Assembly: GCF_000716595.1 (NCBI RefSeq)
Contig: NZ_JNXC01000001.1
Location: forward strand, 558,001-622,000
Reading direction: 5' to 3'
Length of the DNA: 64,000 nt
Source: Saccharothrix sp. NRRL B-16314
GTDB taxonomy: Bacteria > Actinomycetota > Actinomycetes > Mycobacteriales > Pseudonocardiaceae
Under the pieces are notes generated by a model, which did no database searches, was not told where the DNA came from, and saw only the letters and a list, made by a program, of their open reading frames with translations. Of this stretch, positions 4,367 to 24,929 are shown one piece after another. How positions within the stretch are numbered: the first letter of the stretch is position 1; the number at the start of each line of letters is the position of its first letter. A program made the position numbers and the translations under genes.

Positions 4367-5485
4367 GTGAAGACCAAGCGACACGGCGCCGTTCTCGGCC
4401 TGATCGCGGCCGGTGCGCTTCTGCTCACCGCGTGTGGAAGCGACGCGAACACCCCGCAGGGCCAGGCGCCGGCGACCGGCGAGTCGTCGACCCCGGTCGA
4501 CTGCGGCGGCAAGTCGAAGCTCAGCGCAGAGGGCTCTTCGGCGCAGAAGAACGCGATGGACACGTTCGTGCAGGCCTACCAGCAGAAGTGCCAGGGCGCT
4601 GACCTCGCGTACAACGCCTCCGGTTCCGGTGCGGGCGTCAAGCAGTTCATCGGTGGTCAGGTCGACTTCGGCGGCTCCGACTCGCCGCTGTCCGAGAGCA
4701 AGGGCGAGGTCGCCAAGGCGGCCGAGCGCTGCCAGGGCAACCCGGCGTGGAACCTGCCGCTCGTGTTCGGCCCCGTCGCGGTCGGCTACAAGCTGGAGGG
4801 CGTCACCGACCTCACGCTGTCCGGCGAGCTCGTCGCCAAGATCTTCAACGGCACCGTGAAGAAGTGGAACGACCCGGCCGTCGCCGCCCTCAACGGCAGC
4901 GCCAAGCTGCCCGACAAGGACATCAAGGTCGTCTACCGCTCGGACGAGTCCGGCACCACGGACAACTTCCAGCTGTACCTCGACGCCGCTTCGAAGGGCG
5001 CGTGGACGCAGGGCGCGGGCAAGCAGTTCAAGGGCGGTGTCGGCGAGGCCAAGGAGAAGTCCGCCGGTGTCGCGCAGGCCGTCGGCTCGGTCGACGGTGC
5101 CATCACCTACGTCGAGCTGTCCTTCGCCCAGGACAACAAGCTGTCCATCGCCAAGATCGACAACGGCTCCGGCGCGGTCGAGCTGAACGACGCGTCGGTC
5201 GGCAAGGCCATCGACGGCGCGAAGATCAAGGGCACCGGCAACGACCTGGTGCTCGACCTCGACTCGATCTACGGCTCCACCGAGGCGGGCACCTACCCGC
5301 TGCTGCTCGCCACCTACGAGATCGTCTGCTCGAAGGGCTACGACGCCGACACCGCGAAGGCCGTCAAGGCGTTCCTCACGGTGGCCGCGACCGACGGCCA
5401 GGCCGGCCTCGCGGACGCGGGCTACGCCCCCGTGCCCCAGGCCTTCCAGGAGAAGCTGCTGACCGCCATCAAGGCGATCGCCTGA
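4367..5485 (+). CDS. pstS: Phosphate ABC transporter substrate-binding lipoprotein PstS
   Basis: 372 aa. Signal peptide with lipobox LLTAC (Cys23), then a periplasmic-binding fold with the phosphate-binding phrases [28 protein letters not shown] and [11 protein letters not shown]. It captures inorganic phosphate outside the membrane for PstCAB. The GTG start at 4367 is set by GGAGGA at 4355-4360 and by the signal peptide; the frame stays open upstream through the PHO box, which is noncoding. First gene of pstSCAB, controlled by the repeats described above. Confidence 0.96.
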
Positions 5486-5519
5486 CCGGGCCGGCACACT
5501 TCTCGGGAACGCCATTGCG

Positions 5520-6575
5520 ATGAACGACCGCACAGTGGCCCCACGCCCCGCGGGCACCGGTTCGACCGGTGCCCGCGCGGGCGTTCCGGCTGCCCGACCC
5601 GACTCGGAGGCTCCGATTCCCCCGACCACGGAAGCCGACCAGAAGACCATCGTCCGGCCGGGTGACCGGATCTTCGCAGGCCTGGCCACCGGGTCGGGCA
5701 TCTTCATCGTGGTCCTGATCGCGGCGATCGGCGTCTTCCTGCTGCTCCAGGCCATCCCGTCGCTCGCGCTGGACCAGGTCAACTTCCTGACCAGCCGCGA
5801 GTGGTCGACCGGCGACGTCGACAACATGCGGTACGGCATCCTGGACCTGTTCCTGGTGACCGTGGTGTCGTCCGCGTTCGCCCTGGTCATCGCGATGCCG
5901 ATCGCCCTCGGCATCGCCCTGTTCCTCACCCAGTACGCGCCACGCCGGCTGGCCCGGCCGTTCGCGTACGTCATCGACCTGCTGGCCGCCGTGCCGTCGA
6001 TCATCTTCGGCCTGTGGGGCCTGCTCGTGCTCGGCCCGGTGCTCACCCCGATCGGCGAGTGGCTGACCTCGAACCTCGGCTGGCTGCCGCTGTTCGCCGA
6101 GGGCAACGTCAGCATCGAGCTGGGCGGCACCATCTTCACCGCCGGCATCGTGCTGGCCGTGATGATCCTGCCGATCATCACCGCGGTCAGCCGCGAGGTG
6201 TTCGACCGCACCCCGGTCACCCACGTCGAAGGCGCCATCGCGCTGGGCGCCACGAAGTGGGAGGTCGTGCGGACCACGGTGCTGCCGTTCGGCAAGGCCG
6301 GTTACGTCAGCGCCTCCATGCTCGGCCTCGGCCGGGCGCTCGGTGAGACGATCGCGCTGACGATCATCCTCAGCGGCACCGGCGCGGCGTTCGCGTGGAG
6401 CCTGTTCGACGGCGGCGCGACGTTCGCGTCGAAGATCGCGCTGGCCGCGCCCGAGTTCAACGACCCGCGCACCGCGGGCGCCTACATCGCCGCCGGCCTG
6501 GTGCTGTTCGTGCTCACCTTCGGCGTCAACGCCATCGCCCGGTCCATCGTCGCCGGTCACAAGGAGTACGAATGA
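5520..6575 (+). CDS. pstC: Phosphate ABC transporter permease PstC
   Basis: 351 aa. About 45 residues of disordered, Pro/Ala-rich cytoplasmic N-terminus, then six or so membrane helices of the binding-protein-dependent permease type. The EAA-like coupling loop reads [20 protein letters not shown]. It pairs with PstA to form the phosphate channel. It starts 34 bases after pstS and overlaps pstA by ATGA at 6572-6575, so translation is probably coupled. Length and layout are normal for the family. Confidence 0.95.
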
Positions 6576-7486
6576 CGACCGACACGGCGGACCTGAACCG
6601 CCTCGCCACGCCGCCGACGTTCCAGAGCGTCTCCGGTGCGCGCAAGTTCAAGAACGCCGTCGCCACCGCGCTGGTGTACGGGGCGTTCCTCGTCGCGATC
6701 GTGCCGCTGATCTGGGTGCTGTTCGTGGTGGTCGAACGCGGGTTCCCGGTGGTGCTGGACGGCGACTGGTGGCAGAAGTCGCTGTCCGGTCTGCTGTCCC
6801 GCCAGCAGGGCGGCGGCGTCTACCACGCGATCTACGGCACGCTCGTGCAAGGCCTGGTGTGCGGTGTGCTGTCGGTGCCGCTCGGCCTGTTCGTCGGTGT
6901 GTACCTGGTGGAGTACGGCGGCCGGTCCAAGCTGTCCCGCGCCACCACGTTCATGGTCGACATCCTGACCGGCGTGCCGTCCATCGTGGCCGCGCTGTTC
7001 ATCTACACGCTGTGGATCACGTACTTCGGCTTCGGTCGCAGCGGTTTCGCGGTGTCGCTGGCGCTGGTGCTGCTGATGGTGCCGGTGATCGTGCGGACCA
7101 CCGAGGAAATGCTGAAGATCGTGCCGGACGAGCTGCGCGAGGCGTCCTACGCGCTGGGCATCCCGAAGTGGAAGACGATCGTGAAGGTCGTCATCCCCAC
7201 GGCGCTGTCCGGGATCATCACCGGCATCATGCTGGCCCTCGCCCGGGTCATGGGCGAGACCGCCCCGGTGCTCGTGCTCGCCGCTTACGCGCCGTACATC
7301 AACTACAACCTGTTCGAAGGACCGATGGCGTCGCTGCCGCTGCTGATGACGTCGGAGCGGAACAACCCGACGCAGGCCGGTTTCGAGCGGATCTGGGGTG
7401 CGGCGATCACCCTGGTCATCATCATCACGCTGTTCAACCTGCTGGCTACCGTGATCTCGCGGTGGCTGGCTCCGAAGACGAAGTGA
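6572..7486 (+). CDS. pstA: Phosphate ABC transporter permease PstA
   Basis: 304 aa with six predicted membrane helices. The permease coupling loop is [20 protein letters not shown], and [10 protein letters not shown] and [13 protein letters not shown] are typical of PstA. It forms the channel with PstC and docks on PstB. The ATG at 6572 overlaps the pstC stop; pstB begins 10 bases after its own stop. No anomalies were seen. Confidence 0.95.
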
Positions 7487-8437: not shown

Positions 8438-8839
8438 GTGGCGATGGAAGGTGCGTGGAGCGCACAGTCCATGCAGGCGATGACGGCCAACATGGTCGGT
8501 CTCAAGCAGGCCGCCGAGTCGGGCTCGTTCGCGATCAGCGAAGACGGTGCCCAGGCCTACCTGAAGGCGATCGACGCCGCTATGCAGGACCTGCGCAAAA
8601 TCGACCAAGAGCTCGGCTTGTTGCGTCAGGACGTCAAGCTCGGAACCAGCCCGGACGGCACGGCCATGGCGCGCTACAACAAGGAGAGCGCCGAAGGTGG
8701 CGCCGGCACGACCGGCATCGTCCCGGCGATCGAGCAGTTGCGGACAGCGTTGGACGAGGCGCGTGGGGCGATGCAGAAGGCGATCGAGAACTATCGTGAG
8801 GTCGACAGCTCGAACGCAAGCACCTACAAACGCTACTGA
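8438..8839 (+). CDS. Small helical protein with a type VII YxxxD signal
   Basis: 133 aa, largely alpha-helical, no signal peptide. Near the C-terminus NYREVDSS contains YxxxD, the general secretion signal of ESX/type VII substrates, following a long helix (residues about 90-122). It is followed by a DUF3558 lipoprotein, a PPE-like protein and EspG, so it is best read as an ESX-type substrate or partner resembling WXG100/Esp proteins. No WXG turn is evident, so it is not a standard EsxA/B. GTG at 8438 is chosen because AGGGGG lies 5-6 bases ahead; a TTG 15 bases upstream or an ATG 6 bases downstream are alternatives. Confidence 0.65.
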   Translation: MAMEGAWSAQSMQAMTANMVGLKQAAESGSFAISEDGAQAYLKAIDAAMQDLRKIDQELGLLRQDVKLGTSPDGTAMARYNKESAEGGAGTTGIVPAIEQLRTALDEARGAMQKAIENYREVDSSNASTYKRY

Positions 8840-12519: not shown

Positions 12520-15500
12520 TCAGGCGCACGGGTCCTTCGCCGCGTTCACGATGTCCAGGTTCGGCGGCGGCGAGGGCTTGTTCGGCTCGGCTCCCGCGGG
12601 CTGCGGTGCCCGGACTTCCTCGTCCCAGCCGGGTCCGATGAGGAGCAGGACCGCGCCGCCCATGCCCGCGTCGAACACCAGCGTCGCGCCGGGCACCGAG
12701 GACTGGAGCGTCGCGGCGGCGTCCTCACCGCCGATCCCGTACTTGATGACGGTCTTGTCGGTGGGTGGCGCGTTGTCGCTGATGACCACGTCGTAGCCGA
12801 GCTCCCGCAGGGCTTCGGTGGTCTCGCGCGCCGCGCCGCCGTTGTCCGGATCACCGTTGCGCACCTGGACCTTCAGGCCCTTGTGGTCGACGATCTTGCC
12901 CTGCTTCGGGCCGGGTGCCGGCGCCGGCTCCTTCGCCTTGTTCGGGTCCGGCACCGTGGTGTCGGGCGTCTCGTCCGGCAGCGGCGTGCCGTCGATGATG
13001 GCCTGGAACAACGCCTTGGTCTCGGGTTCCCGCAACAACTCCAGGTTGTCGTCGGTCGCCAGCGTCTCGCCTTCGTCCGTCCTGCGCGGGACCGTGACGA
13101 AGCTGACCCGGCCCGCTTCCAGGCTCTGCATCGACTGCGCCAGCGTGAGCATGTCGTTCACGCCGACGTTCTGGCCGACGGTGGAGGCGGCGAACGCGTT
13201 GAGGAAACCGTTGAGCTTGCCCGGGTTCAGCAGGATCTCCGACGACAAGGCCTTGCGCAGCAACGCGGACAGGAACTGCTGCTGCCGCGTGACGCGGTCG
13301 AAGTCGGTCTTGCTCTCGCCCTCGACCTTGCGCGCCCGCACGTAGTCGAGCGCCTTGGTCCCGTTGATCTCGTACTTGCCCGGCTTGTCGAAGATCATGC
13401 CGAGCTCTTCGTCGTCCATCTGCTTCTGCACGCACACCTCGACGGTGCCGATGGCGTCGACCATGCCCTTGAAGCCGTTGAAGTCCACGCTGATGAAGTG
13501 GTTGATGTCCAACCCGGTCAGCTCGGTCATGAACTTGCTGACGCACTTCGGCCCGCCGACCGCGTACGGCTCGTTCGCCTTCACGCCCTCGGTCCGCTCC
13601 AGCTGGGTGCCGGTGTACTCGCCGGTGCTCGGGTCCCACGACTCGCACTCGGGGCGGGTGATCAGCAGGTCTCGCGGCACGGAGACGACGACCATGCGCT
13701 TACGGTCGGCCGGGATGTGCGCGAGCATCAGCACGTCCGAGCGCGCGCCCTGGGTGTTCTCGGAGTTCGGGTCGCCGACGCCGTCTTCCGGTTTGGCGCC
13801 CGCACGGGTGTCCGAGCCGATGATGAGGAAGTTCTCGTCGCCGAGCTGCTTCTCCGCTTGGTGCACCGCGGCGGAGTCGGTGTTCAGCGCTTCGATCTCG
13901 GTGAACTTGCTGTCGATGTAGAGCAGCGTGCCCCAGGTGAGGCCGGTCGACATGAACACCAGGATGGCGGCGGTCAGCGAGACGACCTTGATCAAGCGGA
14001 CGATCTTGCTGTGCTTGGCCGTGCGACCGCGGCGACGTGGGCCGCCCTCGTCGGGGACGTCGACCGGTGAGGCGTACTCGGTGGCGTCCTCGTCCTCTTC
14101 CTGCGCCTTCCACGGCATGAGCTTCTGGCGGCGCTCCTTGCGGATGCGCTCCTGCTCGGCCAGTTCGTCGTGGACGGCGGAGAAGCGGGCCAGCGTGTGG
14201 TCGACCTCGCGACGCTTCTTGACGTCGTCGCTGATGGCCTCCATCTCCGTGGTGAGGCTGGACGGGTCGATGGCTTCGCGCGGCTCCGGGCGTCCGCTGG
14301 TGAGGCGGTCGGCGATGGGAGCCGGGACGGGCGGGGCAGCGGGAGGCGCGGCAGCGGCGCCGTCCGCGGCGAACCTCCGGCCGGCCACGTCACCGGCGGG
14401 ACGCGGACCGCTGCCGTCGGGACGGCGGCCGGTGCTGTCGACCGGTTCGCCGGTCTCGGCGAGCCGTCGGGGTCCGCTGCCGTCCGGGTGGCGGCCGGTG
14501 AGGTCGTCGGCGGGAGGACCTTCGGCGAGCCGGCGCGGACGGGCGGCCGGGTCTTCCGGCAGACCGGAAGGGCCTTCGGCGAGGCGCCGGGGACCGCCCG
14601 CTGGGGGCCGGCCTCCGTCGTCGACCGGTGCGCCGCCTTCGGCGAGGCGTCGCGGTCCGCTGCCGTCGGGGCGGCGACCGGTGGGGTCTTCGACCGGCGC
14701 ACCGGGCCTCGGCCCGTCGGCCGGGCGGCGCGGGTCGGCGGCCGGGTCTTCGGGGCGCGGACGTCGGCCGGTTTGGGGCCCGCCGGTCAGGTCGTGCGGT
14801 CCGCTGCCGTTCGCGGGTCGCCTAGGGGCGTCACCGGCCTCCGGGCGACGGGCGTTCTCGGGGCGACGGGGGCTGTCGGCCGGCGGGGGGCCGGGGTGCA
14901 GGCGCCGGCCGGTGTTCTCGCCGGGCCTCGGGGCGTCGCCGAGGCGCTGTCCGATGCCATCGGGCGCGATTTCGGCCCGGCGGTCCGGCGCGTCCGACCG
15001 GCGACCGGGTGCGTCCGGGGCCGGGTTCTCAGGACGTCGTCGCGGGCCGCTGCCGTCGGCCTGGCGGGAGGGTGCGTCCGGGGCCAGGCCTTCGGGGTGC
15101 CGGCGCGGGCCGCTGCCGTCCGGAGAGCGACCGGGTGTGTCAGGGGCGAGGTTCTCGGGACGTCGTCGCGGACCGCTGCCGTCCGGGAGCCGTCGACCCG
15201 GCTCGGCGCCAGGAACCTCGGGGCGCCGGCCCCCGCCGTCCGCGAGCCGTCGCGGCGCAGCGGTCGGGTCCTGCGGGCCGTGCGGCCCCGCTTCGGGGCG
15301 GGGCCGGCCGTTGGCCGGGATGCGCCTGCTCGGGTCGCCCGCCGCGTCAGGGTGCGCCGTGGGCGCGGGACGTCGGGGTTCCGCGTCGTCCGGTCGGCCC
15401 GCATAGCCGTTGGGCGCGCCGTTCGCGGGACGGGGGCCGCCGCGTCGTCCACCGTCTTCCGGACGTCGCGGTCCGGCACCGGGGCCGTCGGCCCGACGGC

Positions 15501-15996: not shown

Positions 15997-16206
15997 CCGG
16001 TCTCCCTTCAGCTTCGGTCATGAGTAGGTCGTCATCACGAGTTGACGACAGCAAGGACACATTGGTTGCACCAACGGCGTGTCACTTGCCTTGGCGATAC
16101 TACGGATGACCGCCAGTCCTGACGACCACTCCCGGTGATACAGGGGTCGGCAGTACTCGGTTGCGCGCAGCAGGCTACGCCCGAAAGGGTGAGCGGTCGT
16201 GAGGTG

Positions 16207-17070
16207 TCAGTAACCGACTACCCGAGATTCGGCGATTCCGCGTCGCCCGGAAGCGGCACCCGCCAGACGGACGCGGCCGTTCTCGCGATAGGCGACGGCG
16301 TTGCGTCCTGACTGCTTGGCCGTGTAGAGCAGGCTGTCGGCGCGCAGCAGTTGTTGCTCGGGCGCGACCGCCGGCCGGGCCGGCGACTCCCCGGCGGCCG
16401 GCTCGTAGGCCAGCCCGATGCTGACGGTCACTCGCAAACCGGGCGCGAGGGAAGCCCAAGCGTGACGCTCGACACGCAGCCGTGCCGACTCGGCGATCTC
16501 CACCGCCGGCGACGCGTCGAGGCCGGGGAGCACCAGGACGAACTCCTCGCCGCCGTAGCGCGCGCAGAAACCGTCCTCCGGCAGCTCTTCCTGGAGCAGT
16601 TCGACCACGCGCTGCAACACACGGTCACCCAACAGGTGACCGAACGTGTCATTCACCTGTTTGAACCAGTCGAGGTCGATCAGCGCGATGGCGAGCCCGG
16701 CCGTCGCGGTGCCGCGGTGGGCGACCAGGTCGAGCAGCCGCTCGTCCAGGTATCTGCGGTTGTAGCTGTCGGTGAGGCTGTCCCGGAGGCTCTGCTCGCG
16801 CGCCTCGGCGTGCTCGCGGCGCAGCCGGTCGACCTCGCGCCGCAGCTGCTCGGGCACCTGCGGCTGGTCGTCCTGATCGGCGTAGACCAGGTCGAACGCG
16901 GAGCGCAAGTGCTGGTAGGCCTGCCGCCACTGACCGCGGGAGGCGAGCAGCGCGGCGATCGACTCGTGCAGCTGGACCAGCCCGGTGCCCTCGCTGTCGG
17001 ACACGGGCAGGGTCGCTCCGCGCCGGCCGTCGCGGTCGGACTCGGCGACCTCGGGTCGCAGTGCGGTCAT
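16207..17070 (-). CDS. GGDEF-domain diguanylate cyclase
   Basis: 287 aa. A helical, TPR-like N-terminus (about 30-95), then a GGDEF domain (about 95-270) with LIDLDWFKQVNDTFGH and an intact active-site loop YGGEEF (GGEEF at 173-177). No RxxD inhibitory site is seen upstream of the loop (sequence LPEDGFCA), so feedback inhibition by c-di-GMP through a canonical I-site is unlikely. It should make c-di-GMP in the cytoplasm; no membrane segment or EAL domain. The ATG at 17068-17070 is preceded by GGGAGGTGA, which fixes the start despite a longer open frame. Confidence 0.85.
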   Translation of the reverse strand: MTALRPEVAESDRDGRRGATLPVSDSEGTGLVQLHESIAALLASRGQWRQAYQHLRSAFDLVYADQDDQPQVPEQLRREVDRLRREHAEAREQSLRDSLTDSYNRRYLDERLLDLVAHRGTATAGLAIALIDLDWFKQVNDTFGHLLGDRVLQRVVELLQEELPEDGFCARYGGEEFVLVLPGLDASPAVEIAESARLRVERHAWASLAPGLRVTVSIGLAYEPAAGESPARPAVAPEQQLLRADSLLYTAKQSGRNAVAYRENGRVRLAGAASGRRGIAESRVVGY

Positions 17071-17258: not shown

Positions 17259-17708
17259 TCAGTTGACGCAGGGGGCGAAGCCGTAGGCCTTGCCGTTGAG
17301 CAGGACGACGTGCTGCGACCCGATCTGGCTGCCGATCTCGGTGCCTTCCTGCACCACCGTCAGCGTGACCGCGACGACCAGCACGACCCCTCGCGGGTGC
17401 TCGTCCTCGCCGGGCGGCGCCCACTGTGGGTCCAGTCTGAGCGTGGACATCGTCGGCTGCACTTTGATGGTGCCGGTGGGCAGCTCGCAGCTCTCGTCGC
17501 GGAAGTCCGGGTGCTGGGTGTCCTTGAGCAGGTCGCGCTGCTCGGACGAGCCCTGCCCACCCGCCTCGTTGAGGTCGGCGAAGTAGCCGGTCACCAGTTC
17601 CCGCTCGACGTCGGTGACCTTCAGCGGGCGCGCGGTGCCGGTGACGGCCGACGTGCAGCCGACCAGGGTGAGGGCACACGCCATCGCCGTGACGGCGCGT
17701 ACGGCCAT
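17259..17708 (-). CDS. Small secreted lipoprotein, function unknown
   Basis: 149 aa. N-terminal signal with lipobox TLVGC (Cys18), followed by TSAVTGTARP, a phrase frequent at the start of mature actinobacterial lipoproteins. The rest is a small domain with two cysteines (DESCELP and the C-terminal FAPCVN) that could pair. ATG at 17706-17708 is preferred because it lies one base after the dus stop; a GTG nine bases upstream is possible. Probably co-transcribed with dus. No function can be assigned. Confidence 0.65.
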   Translation of the reverse strand: MAVRAVTAMACALTLVGCTSAVTGTARPLKVTDVERELVTGYFADLNEAGGQGSSEQRDLLKDTQHPDFRDESCELPTGTIKVQPTMSTLRLDPQWAPPGEDEHPRGVVLVVAVTLTVVQEGTEIGSQIGSQHVVLLNGKAYGFAPCVN

Positions 17709-17709
17709 G

Positions 17710-18858
17710 TCACCCACCCGAGTGCATCTCGTCGGCGCCGACGGGCACCGTGGCGTCCTCGGGGTCGTCCAGCCAGCCCTCGGGCAGCACGACCTTGCCG
17801 GGTGAGCCCTGCCGGCCGCGCGGCTCGTCGGCGTTGTCCGGGAACTCCAGCGCCGGGTCGAGCCTGCCGACCAGGTCGTCCAGCTCGGCGAGCGTGGACA
17901 CCATGGCGAGGCTGCGCCGCAGGTCCGCGCCGACCGGGAAGCCCTTCAGGTACCAGGCCATGTGCTTGCGCAGGTCGCGGATGCCCTTGTCCTCGCCGAG
18001 GAAGTCGGCGAGGAGCGCGCCGTGGCGCCGCAGGATGGCGGCGACCTGGCCCAGCCGGGGGCCGGTGGGGAGGGGTTCGCCCCGGAACGCCGCCTGCAGC
18101 TCGCCGAACAGCCAGGGGCGGCCGAGGCAGCCGCGTCCGACGACGACGCCGTCGCAGCCGGTCTTGGCGACCATGTCGAGCGCGTCCTGGGCGCTGAAGA
18201 TGTCGCCGTTGCCGAGCACCGGGATGCTGGTCACGGCCTCTTTCAGGCGGGCGATGGCGGACCAGTCGGCCTGGCCGGAGTACCGCTGGGCCGCGGTGCG
18301 CGCGTGCAGCGCAACCGCTTGCGCACCCTCGTCCTCGGCGATGCGCCCGGCGTCCAGGTAGGTGAGGTGGTCGTCGTCGATGCCGATGCGGAACTTGACC
18401 GTCACGGGCACCCCGGCGGGCTCACCGGCGCGCACGGCGGCCCGCACGATCTGCCGGAACAGCTGCCGCTTGTACGGCAGGGCCGCCCCGCCGCCCTTGC
18501 GCGTCACCTTGGGCACCGGGCAGCCGAAGTTCATGTCGATGTGGTCGGCCCGGTCCTCGGCGACGATGATCCGGGCGGCTTCGGACATGGACTTCGGGTC
18601 CACGCCGTAGAGCTGCATCGAGCGGGGCCGTTCGCCCTCGCCGAAGGTGATCATCTGCATGGTCTTGGCGTCGCGTTCGACGATCGCGCGGGCGGTGATC
18701 ATCTCGCAGACGTAGAGCGAGGTGGGGCTGCCGAACTCGCGGCACAGCTGCCGGAAGGCCACGTTCGTGATGCCCGCCATGGGTGCGAGCACGACGGCGG
18801 GATCGACCGGGAAGCGGCCGATCTTCAGTGGCTGGGTGGCGAGCGGTGCGGTGGACAT
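17710..18858 (-). CDS. dusB: tRNA-dihydrouridine synthase (DusB family)
   Basis: 382 aa TIM-barrel flavoprotein. LAPMAGITNVAFRQLCREFG, the Dus signature HIDMNFGCPVPKVTRKGGGAA (catalytic Cys in FGCP), VKFRIGIDD, LHARTAAQRY and VLGNGDIF (phosphate-binding) are all present. It reduces uridine to dihydrouridine in tRNA D-loops using FMN and NADPH. It corresponds to Rv0823c. The C-terminal 40 residues are a charged extension past the usual helical domain. Assignment to DusB rather than another bacterial Dus is by family resemblance. Confidence 0.9.
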   Translation of the reverse strand: MSTAPLATQPLKIGRFPVDPAVVLAPMAGITNVAFRQLCREFGSPTSLYVCEMITARAIVERDAKTMQMITFGEGERPRSMQLYGVDPKSMSEAARIIVAEDRADHIDMNFGCPVPKVTRKGGGAALPYKRQLFRQIVRAAVRAGEPAGVPVTVKFRIGIDDDHLTYLDAGRIAEDEGAQAVALHARTAAQRYSGQADWSAIARLKEAVTSIPVLGNGDIFSAQDALDMVAKTGCDGVVVGRGCLGRPWLFGELQAAFRGEPLPTGPRLGQVAAILRRHGALLADFLGEDKGIRDLRKHMAWYLKGFPVGADLRRSLAMVSTLAELDDLVGRLDPALEFPDNADEPRGRQGSPGKVVLPEGWLDDPEDATVPVGADEMHSGG

Positions 18859-19006
18859 CGCCGTCCATTGTCACCCAACCCGGTCAGTGCTCGTCGCCAC
18901 ACTGGCCGGGGCACCCGAACCCCCGCCCACGGGCATCGTGGTCGCGGTGGGAGTCCGGGTGCCGTTCGCCGTGATCCGACCGGCTGCCCTTACCGGGCGC
19001 GGAGCC

Positions 19007-19036
19007 GGTGCGGGTGCCGGTGCCGGTGCCGGTGCC
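19007..19036. repeat. Short GGTGCC hexamer repeat
   Basis: Four to five near-perfect copies of a GGTGCC-type hexamer lie in the noncoding gap between the dus start and the end of the SOD-like gene. They look like slippage-prone simple sequence; no function is suggested. Confidence 0.5.
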
Positions 19037-19045
19037 GCACGATCG

Positions 19046-19516
19046 TCAGAACGGGACGTTGATGCAGGCGAGGCGGGCGCCTGCGGTTCCCGCGTGGCCG
19101 GGGTCGGTGTGGGTGTGCTCCTCGTGCAGGACGACGGAACGGGGCCGACGTTCGCCGAACTGCCAGTCGACCCGCGTGTACGACGTGCCGCGGCCGGTGG
19201 AGTCGGTGGTGAAGTCGAGCCAGATCTCGTTGCGGGGATTGGCGAAGGCCGGGTCGGTGGCACCGCCCTGGACGTGCTGGAAGTGCGGCCCGGAATCGGC
19301 CGGCAGCGCACCGCACGGGTTGACGTGCGCGTGGGCGCCGTACTCGCGGTTGGGCAGCAGGCCCTTGGTGTGGAGCAGCACGACAGTGCCGCCGCCGACG
19401 GGCGCCGACACCACCGCAGCTTGCGCTCCGGCGGGCACGCGCGGGTCGTAGCTGGTCAGGTCACCGGACACGGCGGTGAACGAGGCGGCGAGGGTGAGTG
19501 CCACAGCTAGGTGCAT
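19046..19516 (-). CDS. Secreted superoxide dismutase-like (Cu/Zn SOD family) protein
   Basis: 156 aa with an N-terminal signal peptide (about 1-18, no lipobox). SOD-family landmarks: GAHAHVNPCG (two His of the copper site plus the disulfide Cys), SGPHFQHVQGG, WLDFTTD, VVLHEEHTHTDPG and GARLACINV (second disulfide Cys and Arg). Enough ligand positions remain for Cu/Zn binding, but spacing differs from classic SodC, so activity is uncertain. It would act outside the cell against superoxide. ATG at 19514-19516 with AGAGAGA upstream. Last clearly chromosomal gene before the decayed island. Confidence 0.7.
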   Translation of the reverse strand: MHLAVALTLAASFTAVSGDLTSYDPRVPAGAQAAVVSAPVGGGTVVLLHTKGLLPNREYGAHAHVNPCGALPADSGPHFQHVQGGATDPAFANPRNEIWLDFTTDSTGRGTSYTRVDWQFGERRPRSVVLHEEHTHTDPGHAGTAGARLACINVPF

Positions 19517-19627
19517 GTGATCTCTCTATCGGGCCGTGCGCCGACCGTGCCAGCGACATCACCCATCCGGCCGATTTACACCTACGTGAACTCGAACCGA
19601 CCGCACACTCGGAACCACCGACAATCG

Positions 19628-19663
19628 TGGGCCGCCAGGGGCTCAACCCTGAACCCGCAGGTT
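19628..19663. other. Degenerate attachment site (copy of tRNA-Lys 3' end)
   Basis: This stretch copies the 3' end of the tRNA-Lys gene at 22781-22816: the first 13 bases are identical, AACCCTGAACCCG is identical, and the whole differs by three substitutions and one deletion. It is too short and too mutated to be a tRNA. Integrative elements leave such copies at the far end after inserting into a tRNA 3' end, so it is read as the second att site of a decayed element. Confidence 0.65.
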
Positions 19664-19806
19664 GTGGATCTACCTCCCTCTCCTTACTGCGGTTCATCTG
19701 TTCCCACACCCAGAACGACCATCTTGTCCGCACAGGTTCCGCAGATACGACCTGTACCTCTTCGTCCCGCACGACAAACAGCAAGGTCATCTCCGGCCGT
19801 TCCTGA

Positions 19807-19935
19807 TGCCAGGGCTGTGCCGTCACCCTGGCCGACGTGCAAGCCGCAGTGAACGTTCCCGATGCGTACGCGGCCACGCTCGCCGACCAACTCAACGCCA
19901 CGGCCACCACCACCGGGCTCGCGGTCGCCGCCTGA
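19807..19935 (+). pseudogene. Possible C-terminal fragment of a lost gene
   Basis: An open frame without a start codon reads LADVQAAVNVPDAYAATLAD and then LNATATTTGLAVAA before TGA, with coding-like composition, and is followed 14 bases later by a strong hairpin. The upstream part of this frame is closed by a stop at 19804-19806. It may be the tail of a small gene from the decayed element. The family is not recognised. Confidence 0.3.
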
Positions 19936-19949
19936 CCGTCCACCACTTC

Positions 19950-19988
19950 ACGGGGGCATGGCCGAGAACGCCCCGGTCATGCCCCCGT
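19950..19988 (+). terminator. Hairpin, probable terminator
   Basis: Perfect 11-bp stem ACGGGGGCATG / CATGCCCCCGT with a 17-base loop, just after the stop of the fragment ending at 19935. Confidence 0.55.
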
Positions 19989-20008
19989 TGTCTGGTCACC
20001 ACCCACTA

Positions 20009-20066
20009 TCGAAAGGGAGCGATCCTTGGTTCTCATCCTGCAAGACCGCATCGCCCGACCGAGTCC
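20009..20066 (+). repeat. Degenerate duplicate segment, copy A
   Basis: Contains GAAAGGGA, a TTG start at 20026 and a short frame LVLILQDRIARPSPADLV that stops at 20113-20115 (29 codons). It matches copy B at 21218-21276 at roughly three bases in four, including ribosome site and first codons. Both look like truncated starts of the same ancestral gene. Confidence 0.6.
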
Positions 20067-20095
20067 TGCGGACCTCGTCACATCCCGTCGACCCG

Positions 20096-20443
20096 TCACA
20101 TCATCCTGTCGGTAAGCCCTACTATCACCGTGGCCACGCCGTCTTTCACCGCTGTAAGGATTGCATCTTTCGCCCCGCTTGCAACCGCCGTCCTCAGCGT
20201 CCTGAGCTTTCCGGGGTGAGATTCCACCGCAGTCACCAGTGCGCCGGGTTCGATGATGGTGCCGTTCTCGTTGACTATACCGTCATTTTTCAGCTGGGTG
20301 ATGAACGCGCGTAACTCCGCAACCGCTTCGTCTAACTCTTCGCGCGACTGCGCAGTGGATTTGTGGATGGTGATTGAATTGTCACGGCCCTTGATCTTGT
20401 AGCTGTCCCCGCCGATTTTGTCTCCACCGACTACGTCCGACAT
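20096..20443 (-). CDS. Small GDKI-motif protein, partner of the DUF6232-like gene
   Basis: 115 aa. Begins with a glycine-rich run, VVGGDKIGGDSYKIKGRDNS, in which the GDKIG(G/R)D pattern also ends the upstream DUF6232-like protein. A charged helix (about 35-52), LKNDG, and a C-terminal helix-rich segment (SHPGKLRTLRTAVASGAKDA and then hydrophobic VATVIVGL) follow. No enzyme motif was seen. ATG preceded by AGAGAGGAG. It starts 17 bases after the upstream stop, so the two genes form an operon. The shared motif suggests that the proteins contact each other or assemble through the same short repeat (inference). Cargo of the decayed island. Confidence 0.7.
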   Translation of the reverse strand: MSDVVGGDKIGGDSYKIKGRDNSITIHKSTAQSREELDEAVAELRAFITQLKNDGIVNENGTIIEPGALVTAVESHPGKLRTLRTAVASGAKDAILTAVKDGVATVIVGLTDRMM

Positions 20444-20460
20444 GCGACCACTCCTCTCTT

Positions 20461-20982
20461 CTAGCGATTAATGCTGTTACCTGCGCCGTACTGGCCGAAC
20501 TTATCCCTGCCGATCTTGTCGCCGAACACCACGTCGCCGGCGACATGAAGTACTCGCTCCCCAATGGGGGGATCTTCGATCGCGTTGGCGATCTCCTCTC
20601 TGATGCGGTCGATCTCCTGTTGATCGACGCCAGATAATGCAGTGTATTGCGCGCCCGCTGCTTCGAGCAGCAGGGCGTATCGCTGCCTTGTCCCCACTCG
20701 ATGGATTAACACGCTGAGCACGTAGGCGGCGCGGATCATGAGGGTTCCGACAACTGCGATGGTCACCAGTCCGCGGAGCAGGCCGGATGCGGATCCCGCG
20801 CCATTCATCATTGCGAGCGCGGTCAAGATGGCTGCGAGTTCGACGGTGATGCGCGTATAGGTAAGGCGGGGTACGACCTTGTGCGTCTGAATTCTCGAGA
20901 TATTGGCCAGGGGGTAGATCTGATCGCCAAGTCGGATCAATCTTTTGCTGATCCGAATTTTGTCGACCGGCTTTCTTAACAT
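20461..20982 (-). CDS. DUF6232-like membrane protein with C-terminal GDKIG motif
   Basis: 173 aa. N-terminal DUF6232-like segment (RISKRLIRLGDQIYPLANIS, then RIQTHKVVPR), two hydrophobic helices (about 50-68 and 75-95), an alpha-helical stretch with LLLEAAGAQYTAL, and a glycine-rich end VVFGDKIGRDKFGQYGAG. The start at 20980-20982 is fixed by GAGGAGG seven bases upstream; the longer frame is not needed. It is preceded at about 60 bases by a perfect palindrome (21043-21081). Composition is less GC-rich than the flanking chromosome. Family recall is from sequence pattern only; function is unknown. Confidence 0.7.
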   Translation of the reverse strand: MLRKPVDKIRISKRLIRLGDQIYPLANISRIQTHKVVPRLTYTRITVELAAILTALAMMNGAGSASGLLRGLVTIAVVGTLMIRAAYVLSVLIHRVGTRQRYALLLEAAGAQYTALSGVDQQEIDRIREEIANAIEDPPIGERVLHVAGDVVFGDKIGRDKFGQYGAGNSINR

Positions 20983-21042
20983 CCGCCACCTCCTCGTCAG
21001 TGCGGCGGATACAACTCTGGTCGATCGGCCGGGACGGTTCAA

Positions 21043-21081
21043 GGTCGTTCGTTCACTGTCGATGACAGTGAACGAACGACC
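21043..21081. promoter_or_regulatory. Perfect 18-bp inverted repeat upstream of DUF6232-like gene
   Basis: GGTCGTTCGTTCACTGTC is followed after GAT by its exact reverse complement, giving a 39-base palindrome. It lies 60 bases upstream of the start of the minus-strand two-gene unit. It could be an operator, a cruciform recognised by a protein, or a bidirectional terminator. Confidence 0.6.
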
Positions 21082-21217
21082 ACCCGTTCGGTCGCCCTAT
21101 CCCGGCCTGGTCGTTACACGCGGCCCGCCGTATGGACTAACCCGGTCAAGGAACACCCAAGCCGACGGAGTCCGACCGGAACGAACGGCCCAGCCCCGCC
21201 TGCGCCGTTCACCGCAT

Positions 21218-21276
21218 CCGAAAGGGAATAATCCTCTTGGTCCTCACGCTGCAAGATCACATTTCCGACCGGGTCC
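21218..21276 (+). repeat. Degenerate duplicate segment, copy B
   Basis: Second copy of the segment at 20009-20066: GAAAGGGA, a TTG start at 21237 and the codons for LVLTLQDHISDRV. Here the frame continues (next entry). Confidence 0.6.
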
Positions 21277-21545
21277 AACGAGCCGACTGCCGGGACTGGC
21301 GCGACAAGGTCACCGCCATCGGCGGATGGCGCCCTTCCTCGCGTGGCGCGCCCGCGGAACGCCAGGCCCGCTGGGCGTGCCGCACTACACGGGCGTCGGT
21401 CCTTCGACGTGGGTTAGGCATCAACGGCCAGCGGCACCCGGAGGGGACCGCCTTGATGAAGGAAAACCCTGAACACCGCGGTCAGCCCCTCCGAGCGGGG
21501 GATGGACCAGTGCGGGTCGTCGCGCGTCGGGCATTGATGGCGTAG
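21237..21545 (+). pseudogene. Probable remnant of a replication-initiator (RepSA-like) gene
   Basis: An open frame of 102 codons from TTG. Its first 31 residues end in RADCRDWRDKVTAIGGW, resembling the start of RepSA-type replication initiators of actinomycete integrative elements (a W..QV.ATGGC phrase). About 15 residues on, WACRTTRASV recalls the VACGTRRASVC phrase of the same family, as if some 30 residues were lost between. The remainder is unlike any recognised family. The reading is an inference from short matches; it may be noncoding. Confidence 0.35.
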
Positions 21546-21554
21546 GTGTGGGGC

Positions 21555-22202
21555 ATGGTGTCTGCGGTGGTGTTCGACGTTGGCGAGACCTTGCTGGACG
21601 ACTCTCGGGAGTGGGGGGCGTGGGCCGACTGGATCGGGGTGTCCCGGCACACCTTCTCGACGGTGTTGGGCGCGGTGACGGCGGCTGGTCGGGACAACGC
21701 TGAGACGTTCCAGTACTTCCGGCCTGGGTTCGATGTTGCTCACCAGCGGGAGTTGCGGGAGCGGGCTGGGGTGGGCGAGCAGATCGAGAGCGGGGATCTG
21801 TACCCGGATGTGCGGACCGGGTTGGCGGGGTTGCGGCAGGTTGGGTTGTGGGTCGGGGTGGCGGGGAATCAGACTGCTCGGGCGGGTGAGCTGCTGCGGG
21901 GGTTGGAGTTGCCGGTGGACGGGATCGCCACGTCCGGTGAGTGGGGTGTGGCCAAGCCTGCGGCGGAGTTCTTTGAGCGGGTTGTGGACATGACGCCTGG
22001 GGCGGCTGCGGCCGATGTGCTGTACGTCGGTGATCACCGTGACAACGACGTCGTTGCGGCGAAGGCGGCTGGGCTGCGTACCGCGTTGATTCGGCGTGGG
22101 CCGTGGGGGCACCTGTGGGCGGATGATCCGTTGGTGCGTCGTGATGCTGATTGGGTGATCGACTCGCTGCACGACCTGCCGGAACTGTTGGGGAAGGCGT
22201 AA
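21555..22202 (+). CDS. HAD-family hydrolase
   Basis: 215 aa. HAD motif I AVVFDVGETLLDD (nucleophile Asp), motif II around VAGNQTAR, motif III Lys in WGVAKP and motif IV VLYVGDHRDNDVVAAKAAG. A cap domain lies between I and II (about 20-85). Likely a small-molecule phosphatase; the substrate cannot be told. ATG at 21555 is chosen at the start of the conserved strand; a GTG nine bases earlier is possible. Codon use is G/T-richer (many TTG, GTG, GGG) than in chromosomal neighbours, consistent with arrival with the island. Confidence 0.8.
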   Translation: MVSAVVFDVGETLLDDSREWGAWADWIGVSRHTFSTVLGAVTAAGRDNAETFQYFRPGFDVAHQRELRERAGVGEQIESGDLYPDVRTGLAGLRQVGLWVGVAGNQTARAGELLRGLELPVDGIATSGEWGVAKPAAEFFERVVDMTPGAAAADVLYVGDHRDNDVVAAKAAGLRTALIRRGPWGHLWADDPLVRRDADWVIDSLHDLPELLGKA

Positions 22203-22224
22203 GCCGGTAGCCCGGTGTGTTGGT

Positions 22225-22479
22225 TCAGCGCGCGCCGGCCCACGCGGCCAGGTCGAGTAGGCCGGAGCTGAGTGACGGGTTGGTGCGCAGCAAGACCGAT
22301 AGGGCTTGGCGGACCTGCGGATGGTTGCGGTACTTGTAGGCCGCGCCGTCGGCGGCACGTAGGGCCAGTGTCAGCAGGGAGGAGACGTGACGCCGGTCTG
22401 CTGTGGTGAGGAGTTGGCGGGCGCGGGACAGTTCGCCGATCAGGCCGGGTAGGTGGCGTACGGTGGCCGGTGAAGGCAT
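22225..22479 (-). CDS. Small hypothetical helical protein
   Basis: 84 aa from the ATG at 22477-22479. The sequence (TADRRHVSSLLTLALRAADG, then YKYRNHPQVRQALSVLLRTN) is helical and looks coding, but no family is recognised and no clear Shine-Dalgarno precedes it. The frame is open for another 75 codons upstream, so it may be the tail of a longer, broken gene. Its start codon overlaps that of a divergent small ORF. Confidence 0.4.
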   Translation of the reverse strand: MPSPATVRHLPGLIGELSRARQLLTTADRRHVSSLLTLALRAADGAAYKYRNHPQVRQALSVLLRTNPSLSSGLLDLAAWAGAR

Positions 22480-22651
22480 GTGGACCGATGACGACTGGCG
22501 GAACATGCGGACCGTGGCCGAGTTGCTGCTTGCCCGCATGGGAGATCTCAGCGACCGGTTGACCCGGATCGAGGATCGTCTGAAGTGCGGTCGAACAGCC
22601 CAACCTCGACACCGGAAACCGTTCATCACCCTTACGAGTACGAGTGGGTGA
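22478..22651 (+). CDS. Small hypothetical protein, possible element remnant
   Basis: 57 aa starting MWTDDDWRNMRTVAELLLAR and then MGDLSDRLTRIEDRL, an amphipathic coiled-coil-like stretch; the last 20 residues look noncoding. GAAGG lies almost against the ATG. It shares the CATG with the divergent minus-strand ORF, so at most one of the two may be real. Confidence 0.35.
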   Translation: MWTDDDWRNMRTVAELLLARMGDLSDRLTRIEDRLKCGRTAQPRHRKPFITLTSTSG

Positions 22652-22678
22652 CCGTCCGGCCGTCTCGGAGGGCGGGGC

Positions 22679-22819
22679 GCGACGCTGCTCGATGAGGCGG
22701 GCATGACGACTCGTCAGATCGCGGACCTCATCGGCCCCGCGGCCGTCGACAGGGCGTGCCGCTTTGACCAGCATCTTTGGTGGGCCGCCAGGGACTCGAA
22801 CCCTGAACCCGAAGATTAA
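22679..22819 (+). pseudogene. C-terminal remnant of a tyrosine integrase
   Basis: The frame reads ATLLDEAGMTTRQIADLIG, the phrase that precedes the last catalytic residues of phage/AICE-type tyrosine recombinases (normally followed by GH and later a catalytic Tyr). Here GP replaces GH, no catalytic Tyr follows, and the frame runs into the tRNA gene. No start or N-terminal domain exists upstream. Location next to the tRNA 3' end is where the integrase gene of an integrated element lies. Confidence 0.65.
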
Positions 22820-22853
22820 AAGTCTCCTGCTCTGCCAATTGAGCTAGCAGCCC
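22781..22853 (-). tRNA. tRNA-Lys (anticodon TTT)
   Basis: A 73-base cloverleaf on the minus strand: acceptor GGGCTGC / GCGGCCC with one G-T pair, anticodon loop CTTTTAA giving anticodon TTT, T-loop TTCGAGT. CCA is not encoded. Its 3' end (22781) faces the decayed island and its 3' sequence is copied at 19628-19663, so it served as integration site. Confidence 0.95.
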
Positions 22854-23046
22854 TCGGGCGACAGCTTACCGAGAGGCCGACCCATCGACGGCGGGGGTAG
22901 TCGGGTCGGCGGTGTGGACGCGGTGGGGGCGTTGGTGTGGACGAGTGGCGCGGTGAGGGGTTGTGGCTGGTCAGGGGCTCGCGGGGGTGCGGGTGATCTG
23001 CGCGCGTCGGGCGCGCGGTCCGGTGGGGCGGGCTACGGTGGGACGG

Positions 23047-23904
23047 GTGCGGGTGGTTACGTGGAACGTGAACTCGGTCAAGCAGCGCGTGCCGCGGTTC
23101 CTGCCGTGGCTCGACCAGCGGCAACCCGACGTCGTCTGCCTCCAGGAGACCAAACTCGCCGACGACGCCTTCACCGCGCTCCTCGGCGACGAGCTGGCCT
23201 CCCGCGGCTACCAGGTGGCGGTCCACGGTGAGGGCCGCTGGAACGGGGTGGCGATCCTCTCCCGCGTCGGCCTGGACGACGTCGTCACCGGCCTGCCGGA
23301 CGGCCCCGGTTTCCCGCACCCGGAGGCACGGGTGGTCGCCGCCACGTGCGGCGGGGTGCGGGTGCACTCGGTGTACGTCCCCAACGGCCGGGTGCCCGAT
23401 TCCGACCACTACCACTACAAGCTGGCCTGGCTCGCCGCCTTGCGCGACGTCGTCGCCGCGGGCCCCGAGGCGGTCGTCGTCTGCGGTGACGTCAACATCG
23501 CGCCCGCCGACGCCGACGTGTTCGACCCGGCGGCCTACGTCGGCCACACGCACGTGACCGCCCCTGAACGCGAGGCGCTCGCCGCACTCCAGGCGACCGG
23601 CCTGCACGACGTGGTCCGCGACCGGTGGCCGACCGAACGCGTCTTCACCTACTGGGACTACCGCGCCGGCATGTTCCACCAGGACCTGGGCATGCGCATC
23701 GACCTGGTCCTCGCGTCCGACCCGGTGGCGGCACGGGTGGAGGCCGCCTGGGTCGACCGGCACGCGCGCAAGGGCACCGGGCCGAGCGACCACGCACCGG
23801 TGATCGTCGACCTGGACGAGGCCCCGGACGGCGACATCGGCCCGGTCGTGCCGCCGCCGTCCGCTCCCCGCTCCCGCAAGTCCGTGAAGCTGCCCCAGTC
23901 CTAG
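23047..23904 (+). CDS. xthA: Exodeoxyribonuclease III
   Basis: 285 aa endonuclease/exonuclease/phosphatase fold. VVTWNVNSVKQR, CLQETKL (metal-binding Glu), YVPNGR, GDVNIAP (catalytic Asp/Asn), FTYWDYRAG and SDHAPV (catalytic His) are intact. It cuts DNA at abasic sites and trims 3' ends in base-excision repair. GTG at 23047 follows a TACGGT -10-like element by 7 bases with no Shine-Dalgarno: probably leaderless. Its TAG is read on both strands as the stop of the convergent gene (CTAG, 23901-23904). The last 25 residues are a Pro/Ser/Lys tail. Confidence 0.93.
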   Translation: MRVVTWNVNSVKQRVPRFLPWLDQRQPDVVCLQETKLADDAFTALLGDELASRGYQVAVHGEGRWNGVAILSRVGLDDVVTGLPDGPGFPHPEARVVAATCGGVRVHSVYVPNGRVPDSDHYHYKLAWLAALRDVVAAGPEAVVVCGDVNIAPADADVFDPAAYVGHTHVTAPEREALAALQATGLHDVVRDRWPTERVFTYWDYRAGMFHQDLGMRIDLVLASDPVAARVEAAWVDRHARKGTGPSDHAPVIVDLDEAPDGDIGPVVPPPSAPRSRKSVKLPQS

Positions 23905-24929
23905 CCGGCGAGCTCGTCGGGTTCGAGGTCGGCGGTCCACGACTCCGTGCGCGCCCGGCGGCGCGCTGCCGCCGCCAGGGCCAACCGCAGGCAGGCGTCA
24001 CGGACGCGGGTCAGCCGACGCACCCGGGCCAGCCGGTTGAGCTGGAGCGACCGCGCGGCGAGCCGCTGCGTCACCGGCCGCCGCGCCCGCTCGTACTCGC
24101 GCAGACCCGCCTCGACGCCACCGGTCAGGCACTCGGCCAGCACCACCCCGTCGATGATCGCCTGGCACGCGCCCTGCCCGAGGTCCGGTGTCATGGCGTG
24201 CGCGGCGTCGCCGATCAACGCCACGTTCCCGGACACGTAACGGCGCAACGGGGCCAGGTACAGCAGCTCGTGCCGCAGCACGTCCGATGCCGACGCGATG
24301 ATCCGCGGGATCGGGTCGTGCCAGTCGGCGAAGCGCGAGAGGTCGTCGGCCATCGCGTACCAGTTGGTGCGCCCGCCTGCCTGCGGGGTGAGGCCGAACT
24401 TGACGCCCCTGCCCCACGTCTCGCCGCCCGCCGCGACCGGGAAGTCCACCGTGCCGCGCCAGCCGACCGCGCCGGAGGTGCGGACCTCCGCGTCGAACAG
24501 CTCGCCCCGCACCGCGCTGTGGATGCCGTCCGCCCCCACGACGAGGTCGTACCCGGCGCACTCGGCCAACCCCGCCGACGTCCCGAACCGCACCACCCCC
24601 GCCGGCAACGCGTCCGCCAGCACCCCGAGCAACGCGGGCCGGGTGAGGAGGTGGACGGAGTCCGCGCCGAGAGGTGCGATCAGGGTTCCGTCGGGCCTGC
24701 GCAAGGCGCCGTCGGGCTGCCGTCGACCGACGCGCCGCGCGGCACCGCCCACCCCGAGCCGGTCCAGCGCCGCCATCGCGTCGGGCCAGATCCCCAGCCC
24801 GGTGCCGACTTCGGGCAACGCGCCGGAGCGCTCGAAGACGGTCACCTCCCACCCGTTCCGGCGCAACCCGACCGCGGCGGCCAGGCCGCCGACCCCGCCA
24901 CCGATGACCGCCGCACGTCGAAGTCCCAT
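23901..24929 (-). CDS. FAD-dependent monooxygenase
   Basis: 342 aa. Dinucleotide-binding VIGGGVGGLAAAVGL at the start, the DG motif VVGADGIHSAVRG, and the FAD-ribityl motif LIGDAAHAMTPDLGQGACQA, all of the PHBH-type aromatic hydroxylase class. The substrate is unknown. ATG at 24927-24929 starts directly ahead of the FAD motif. It is divergent from a TetR regulator across 56 bases holding two palindromes, so its expression is probably controlled by that repressor. Confidence 0.87.
   Translation of the reverse strand: MGLRRAAVIGGGVGGLAAAVGLRRNGWEVTVFERSGALPEVGTGLGIWPDAMAALDRLGVGGAARRVGRRQPDGALRRPDGTLIAPLGADSVHLLTRPALLGVLADALPAGVVRFGTSAGLAECAGYDLVVGADGIHSAVRGELFDAEVRTSGAVGWRGTVDFPVAAGGETWGRGVKFGLTPQAGGRTNWYAMADDLSRFADWHDPIPRIIASASDVLRHELLYLAPLRRYVSGNVALIGDAAHAMTPDLGQGACQAIIDGVVLAECLTGGVEAGLREYERARRPVTQRLAARSLQLNRLARVRRLTRVRDACLRLALAAAARRRARTESWTADLEPDELAG

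Follow-up and report, generated by a model that had tools for sequence, protein, structure and literature searches.

A 64,000-nucleotide stretch of the Saccharothrix sp. NRRL B-16314 genome (RefSeq assembly GCF_000716595.1, contig NZ_JNXC01000001.1, positions 558,001 to 622,000; hereafter the window) carries a tRNA-Lys(TTT) gene next to the remains of actinomycete integrative and conjugative elements (AICEs), among which lie two small minus-strand genes that encode a DUF6232 protein and a partner protein. The locus had been described from its sequence as a collapsed integrative element that kept its cargo (the original prediction). This description holds for the most part. It says too little of the cargo, however: these two genes form a unit that recurs elsewhere, their products share a terminal motif, and they are the part of the locus worth following. 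The features of the locus, in window coordinates, are as follows.

19627-19671, plus strand: distal attachment (att) copy, derived from the 3′ portion of the tRNA-Lys gene and decayed; its identity to distal att copies in eight relatives is 85-98% (G022, 85.2%; G015, 97.8%)
19810-19936, plus strand: 3′ end of the gene preceding repSA in relatives' AICEs; 19810-19899 is 82% identical to bases 13515-13604 of relative G005, directly 5′ of repSA (end read from the sequence)
19944-20074, plus strand: first RepSA-start remnant, truncated; matches the single G016 repSA start, and a high-scoring segment pair at 19810-20074 matches G012 contig 73 (74.9%)
20096-20443, minus strand: partner protein, 115 amino acids (aa), with an N-terminal Gly/Asp motif and a helical domain; 52-53% identical to the G016 partner, no Pfam family
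20461-20982, minus strand: DUF6232 protein, 173 aa (193 aa if the start is 21042), with a modelled PH-like fold, transmembrane hairpin and C-terminal motif; Pfam PF19744, E 4.1e-16
21043-21081: near-palindrome 5′ of the DUF6232 gene (opposite-strand self-match, 92% over 39 bases)
21193-21328, plus strand: second RepSA-start remnant, ending at a deletion junction (the RepSA-start match extends to 21334); 88% identical to G005 13636-13727 and 83% to G012 contig 73 12180-12323
21328-21545, plus strand: AICE backbone 5′ of the HAD gene, apparently from a second element; matches G005 from 5334, ~8 kb upstream of the G005 repSA start
21546-22202, plus strand: HAD-family hydrolase gene of the AICE backbone; Pfam PF00702, E 1.6e-11, 95.8% protein identity to G014
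22210-22462, minus strand: two fragments of a gene for a 486-aa HTH_31 regulator; 567 bases are missing at 22323/22324 relative to G005
22526-22615: fragment of the next backbone region, 71% identical to G005 8620-8709
22614-22749, plus strand: frame-broken integrase C-terminal scrap, GH and Tyr boxes lost; 77.7% DNA identity to G005 16107-16244, the 3′ end of the integrase gene
22778-22853, minus strand: tRNA-Lys(TTT) gene, the attachment site (ARAGORN)

A composite AICE scar at tRNA-Lys(TTT)

The tRNA gene and its strand are as originally predicted, while its boundary moves from 22781 to 22778. The copy of its 3′ part at 19627-19663 differs by three substitutions and one deletion, the counts given before, and this match of 40.1 bits compares with 26.3 bits for the next match in the window and 30.2 bits for the best of 50 first-order shuffles. 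Thus, as in AICEs of the RepSA type, flanking att copies are present (19627-19663 and 22778-22853), one of them a tRNA 3′ end. They lie 3.15 kb apart in the window versus 15.6 kb in G005. The GC content is 0.57-0.60 at 20000-21249, with flanks at ~0.69-0.76, and three genes at the locus, the HAD gene and the minus-strand pair, are intact open frames.

We mapped the surroundings of tRNA-Lys(TTT) in 23 same-genus relatives (G001-G023) for flanks, att copies and AICE genes. The presence of HAD, HTH, FtsK, RepSA and integrase genes was judged by tblastn with queries from G005, G016 and a further element of the window's own genome (L052), which distant elements would escape. A second att copy or AICE genes occur at this tRNA in 12 of the 23 relatives, with no second copy in the other 11. 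Upstream of the tRNA, eleven relatives have a further att-like sequence (G002, G005, G006, G011, G013, G014, G015, G017, G018, G022 and G023); in G001, which has AICE genes, the stretch begins at a contig end and the distal copy may lie beyond it. G001, G005 and G011 each carry FtsK and RepSA along with a full-length, G005-type integrase (Pfam for G005: FtsK_SpoIIIE, 4.9e-7; RepSA, PF20199, 1.7e-149; Phage_integrase, 2.2e-14). Empty sites are found in G003 and G020, where the SOD-like gene adjoins the tRNA and the middle of the window finds matches of chance length only (≤39 bases). Among the relatives lacking a second att copy, G021 retains a short integrase scrap, and G004, G009 and G016 have a dus-tRNA distance of 3.6-7.6 kb, so that absence of the second copy is not equivalent to a proven empty site. 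Hence tRNA-Lys(TTT) is a recurrent AICE site that is sometimes empty, and both the empty and the AICE-bearing sites that the original prediction expected among relatives do occur.

The blocks of the window match the AICEs of G005 and G011 at this same tRNA, in agreement with the predicted origin from an integrative element of actinomycetes. The integrase scrap is evident at the DNA level, where it is also 73-77% identical to integrase 3′ ends at the same tRNA in G001, G002, G011, G017 and G022; a Pfam search of the 22679-22819 frame, the check proposed for it, gave no match. The G005 integrase encodes ...LLDEAGLTARQIADLLGHSRPSMTQDVYMGR, and the window match ends after ...LLDEAGMTTRQIADLIG, hence the GH and Tyr boxes are missing, as is consistent with the predicted loss of catalytic residues. 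The conserved integrase stretch before the end of the match is spread over two frames, and this frame-broken scrap is all that the window element holds of an integrase gene. The RepSA-like start remnants noticed earlier are two in number, and both are truncated (tblastn covers 50 of 500 residues), leaving no complete replication initiator. With two FtsK queries, window positions 17501-24200 yielded no FtsK-type transfer gene at E 1e-8. We take the gene preceding repSA to be SpdB-like from its position, a name that we apply by assumption; its G016 counterpart had no profile match.

The order of these blocks is permuted relative to G005. From the distal att copy, the window proceeds through 19810-19899 (G005 13515-13604), a repSA start reaching 20074, the two-gene unit, and 21237-21328 (G005 13636-13727). 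At base 21328 it jumps back to the HAD block (21328-22323, G005 5334-6332), which is followed after the 567-base gap by 22324-22462 (6900-7038), and then by 22526-22615 (8620-8709), 22614-22749 (16107-16244) and the tRNA. The HAD block precedes repSA in all four compared loci that hold both (G005, G011, G012 contig 73 and the tRNA-Lys(CTT) element of G008); in the window, the repSA block comes before the HAD block, on the same strand as in G005, and the repSA start is present twice. Since a permuted order and two RepSA starts are not obtainable by deletion from one element, these data argue for at least two elements rather than the single collapsed element of the original prediction. The scar likely consists of pieces of two or more AICEs that would have integrated one after another at tRNA-Lys(TTT), whereupon the replication, transfer and integrase genes would have been lost by deletion and the backbone HAD gene and the passenger two-gene unit left intact. 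The element itself is an ordinary kind of fossil, albeit composite and not single, and illustrates that cargo can persist after several generations of its carriers have gone.

Rearrangement of one AICE by internal transposition might also have permuted the blocks, since the remaining fragments are all short enough to allow it. However, all main blocks lie on the same strand as in G005 and the RepSA start is duplicated. Moreover, the accessible parts of a study of Frankia (PMC3218068) describe both AICE remnants and tandem AICEs within one tRNA-Lys. We therefore regard a single rearranged element as improbable.

The HAD gene, which had been listed with the two-gene unit among the contents of the locus, is not special to it. 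Six of the 23 relatives have it in their tRNA-Lys(TTT) elements (G002, G005, G011, G014, G017 and G022), and the HAD block is 90.5% identical to that of G014 at the DNA level. Four of these relatives (G002, G014, G017 and G022) have no FtsK and RepSA genes detectable by tblastn, and thus decay with retention of the HAD gene is common at this tRNA. By these sequence comparisons, the HAD gene is AICE backbone and not cargo.

Some further observations concern this tRNA and AICEs elsewhere in the genome. In G015, G021, G006, G023 and G007 (L043, L044, L047, L048 and L050), tRNA-Lys(TTT), plus the element where present, is flanked by xthA and other neighbours, namely dus or, in G021, the SOD-like gene, but is turned round relative to them. 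These inverted tRNA genes are only 88-91% identical to that of the window, and we read the arrangement as an inversion local to a hot spot of integration. Between dus and the SOD-like gene, G014 (L026, bases 6221-6930, reverse complement) has a two-gene unit that resembles a small toxin-antitoxin pair, with products of 106 aa and 130 aa, PIN-like by eye. The window's own genome (G000) carries a 13-kb element with an att copy in tRNA-Lys(CTT) (L052, G000:C5:135764-149096), whose 572-aa tyrosine integrase is only ~30% identical to that of the G005 AICE. Additional RepSA-start-like matches in this genome at G000:C2:288871-288934 (also a RepSA protein match) and G000:C6:243757-243811 suggest that other AICEs or remnants may exist.

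A passenger gene pair with matched termini

Only the two minus-strand genes are cargo. Neither gene is present at tRNA-Lys(TTT) in any of the 23 relatives, in keeping with the original view of the pair as cargo. Among the 99 relatives searched, which include a further same-genus genome (G040) outside the 23-relative comparison, DUF6232 was found in five genomes and the partner in three (own genome counted in both). G016 carries the pair twice, with one copy, whose DUF6232 gene is frame-broken, located inside another AICE. This AICE comprises a two-frame transfer gene (82% identical to G005 FtsK over 226 residues), the gene before repSA, the pair on the opposite strand, RepSA (NF041486, 1.4e-139, short of the cut-off set for that model), a small HTH gene recognized by eye, and an integrase-like frame; its 19-kb stretch yielded no tRNA. 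The slot and orientation of the pair in this AICE are the same as in the window, and this must therefore be a real passenger position.

The window DUF6232 protein scores 59.9 bits against a Pfam gathering cut-off of 27.4. A medium-confidence model of the protein is PH-like, and models predict a membrane protein whose PH-like fold is interrupted by a transmembrane hairpin. In sampled genomes of the class, PF19744 was matched in 26 of 394 at E 0.001 (15 above the cut-off), and in 53 of 249 sampled genomes of the family of G226 (51 above the cut-off). Seventeen Streptomyces clavuligerus plasmid records also match DUF6232 (including L091:2956-3890), and the one record that was read has the pair with an FGDNVNMYGG-type motif. 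Near the closest named relative of the pair, from Streptomyces olivochromogenes, a gene for a trypsin-NB-ARC-TPR protein (L149:5599-8280) lies ~0.7 kb past the partner gene.

The same short motif is present at the C-terminus of DUF6232 proteins and at the N-terminus of the downstream neighbour, and this motif varies from pair to pair. For example, the L070 tail ...HRIGKGAHVGGSLGDVVGRDK is followed by a partner that starts with HRIGKGAHIGGSLGDVVGRDK, and the L071 tail ...GDQYNQSGTQNIG by a partner that starts with GDQYNQNGTTNIG. A first set of loci was assembled from the best-scoring places (at most 30 per search) and thus leans to strong members. It gave 51 DUF6232 frames, or 48 once the repeats L103, L104 and L106 (the same as L075, L076 and L077) are set aside. 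A matched copy (score ≥40) accompanies 44 of the 48 genes, and the partner start lies at -4 or -1 from the DUF6232 stop in 37 of these 44 when the nearest start codon is taken. All 51 frames were clustered, the repeats falling into clusters, and across 30 clusters with less than 60% identity the mean score was 69.8 for own pairs and 36.7 for other pairs. The own-pair mean was reached by none of 100,000 permutations; shuffled tails had a mean of 27.5 and a maximum of 55. Two results tell against this match: motif classes are shared by many pairs, so that the own partner comes first in no more than 13 of the 30 rows, and the pair of the window, with a score of 56, is one of the weaker ones.

A second, named set of 36 loci from Streptomyces, Lentzea, Actinokineospora, Actinophytocola, Micromonospora and Microtetraspora gave a matched copy in 35 of 37 DUF6232 frames, and again 0 of 100,000 permutations reached the observed value. 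This set overlaps the first, its organisms being partly the same and some tails letter-identical (e.g. L126 and L157), and its 37 frames were left unclustered. At 570 identical tail residues, the same codon is used in 0.674 of cases versus 0.680 when codons are dealt among pairs, and therefore the likeness of the tails is kept at the protein level and does not reflect recent DNA copying. The motifs are Gly/Asn-rich with G..N.G spacing; the control for this composition comprised 1,726 frames, including shadow frames and those named-set DUF6232 frames with tails that differ from the first-set tails.

A Pfam scan of the 44 partners at E 0.01 identified EAD1, an adaptor domain of conflict systems, in three (L107, L108 and L110) and DUF5955 in ten (best 1.6e-4), and nothing else; the window partner has no EAD match in Pfam. 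Partners from Lentzea jiangxiensis (L162:4489-4731) and Actinokineospora terrae (L165:4483-4779) carry the motif and a second Gly-Asp-rich stretch, apparently without the helical domain, and at both loci a gene for a 147-154 aa protein of no Pfam family lies 5′ of DUF6232. In a subclass (L166, L135, L168, L173, L175, L184 and similar), the motif by eye seems to form two repeats, GD.IQQYG.GSIGKA.H.GSGDI. The prion motif of HET-s is also doubled.

Proposed action of the pair and its rivals

Beyond the composite scar, the passenger slot, the operon layout, the motif matched at the protein level and the EAD1 domains of three partners, which the computations establish, we somewhat favour the view that this fused scar of at least two AICEs has kept, with its HAD gene, a passenger unit that works as a matched-tail signalling pair. 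In such a pair, DUF6232 would reside in the membrane and expose a disordered C-terminal tail bearing the Gly/Asn-rich motif that is repeated at the partner N-terminus. Some trigger would cluster the helical adaptor domain of the partner, whose motif might then nucleate a cross-beta assembly and recruit the DUF6232 tail, and the gathered DUF6232 would act on the membrane. The outcome might be growth arrest or death of the invaded hyphal compartment, or exclusion of a rival element. We judge the chances of a cross-beta contact between the tails to be about even, and propose a role in defence, exclusion or cell death more tentatively. In its fullest form, which we hold at somewhat less than even confidence, the proposal is that DUF6232 and its partner constitute a sensor-light amyloid (prion-type) signalling system that needs no NLR and works by templating between matched tails; AICEs and plasmids would carry it from one actinomycete to another, and adaptor exchange would have linked it to EAD networks.

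The pair might instead be a stabiliser resembling toxin-antitoxin systems, wherein a membrane protein that is harmful alone is quieted by a partner that docks via a similar tail, and this would explain why the pair outlived its element. Two small genes with overlapping starts in 37 of 44 cases, one product predicted to be a membrane protein, and carriage by the G016 AICE and by Streptomyces plasmid records all fit such a unit. However, contact surfaces in toxin-antitoxin pairs are usually complementary and not copies of each other, whereas homotypic assembly is built on copies that match each other at opposite termini. The EAD1 domains of three partners point to conflict networks, and the pair occurs only sporadically (5 of the 99 relatives have DUF6232, own genome included), making a stabiliser unlikely in our estimation. 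We are equally doubtful that the motifs serve as a non-amyloid docking or co-assembly tag, where Gly/Asp motifs would pair as strands or fold into a small beta-roll, only to hold together a two-subunit membrane complex. Such a tag would account for motifs matched in nearly all pairs, and the operon layout would favour co-translational assembly; yet a one-to-one docking site needs no identical sequence on both partners, and Gly/Asn-rich composition with G..N.G spacing is found in amyloid signalling motifs. It seems very improbable that the tails have no function and merely go back to an ancient split of one gene or to a tandem duplication in the operon. The motif does coincide precisely with the gene junction, but synonymous codons are as different within pairs as between them, and even across clusters less than 60% identical the two proteins of a pair continue to match in their motif.

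For matched-tail signalling, DUF6232 units offer a convenient test: they are small, exist in many natural variants and have tails that can each be tested singly, and would thus reveal whether bacteria use templated signalling beyond NLR systems. No paper that names DUF6232 (PF19744) or DUF5955 (PF19380) was found in the literature searched; for the DUF6232 family, these units supply a first functional hypothesis.

Comparison with known systems

As in pSAM2/RepSA-type AICEs, the att copies derive from a tRNA 3′ end, and the elements of relatives hold RepSA, an FtsK-type gene and a tyrosine integrase at the tRNA end. Unlike them, the element in the window is joined from fragments of two or more AICEs and lacks a functional gene for replication, for transfer or for the integrase. 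None of eight proteins matched the anti-phage defence profiles of PADLOC. DUF6232 pairs resemble EAD-coupled conflict systems and EACC1 (Kaur et al. 2020) in the EAD1 domains of three partners, that of the window not among them, and in being membrane-associated actinobacterial two-gene units. The accessible parts of that work (PMC7159879) describe EACC1 as a membrane-associated, actinobacterial two-gene system with one transmembrane helix and a second gene that often includes a caspase-type peptidase. As far as this description goes, the DUF6232 pair differs by its two predicted transmembrane helices, the absence of a peptidase among our matches, and the shared terminal motif.

The closest parallel is with bacterial amyloid signalling sequences (BASS), where, according to the portions of two papers available to us (PMC7889193, PMC8086366), a common motif is found at the C-terminus of a small membrane-targeting effector with a Bell domain and at the N-terminus of the product of a neighbouring gene, an NLR. 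A 2021 review notes, in its accessible part (PMC7889193), that mining via NLR/effector pairs biases the search for amyloid signalling and that other mining criteria are welcome. Our searches for amyloid signalling in Streptomyces or with EAD found no paper on the DUF6232 pair among the matches listed, as judged from titles and abstract openings. The pair differs from BASS in that the neighbour of DUF6232 is a helical protein of ~110 aa, with EAD1 in three cases, instead of an NLR; Pfam at E 0.01 identified no NLR domain (NACHT or NB-ARC) in the 44 partners. In addition, the effector side matches DUF6232 in Pfam and is modelled, at medium confidence, as PH-like, which would set it apart from the alpha-helical Bell domain. 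As with Bell/NLR pairs, however, the genes are adjacent or overlapping, and one motif is placed on the C-terminus of a small membrane-targeting protein and on the N-terminus of its neighbour. By analogy, the DUF6232 pair probably works like BASS, even though we do not class it as BASS.

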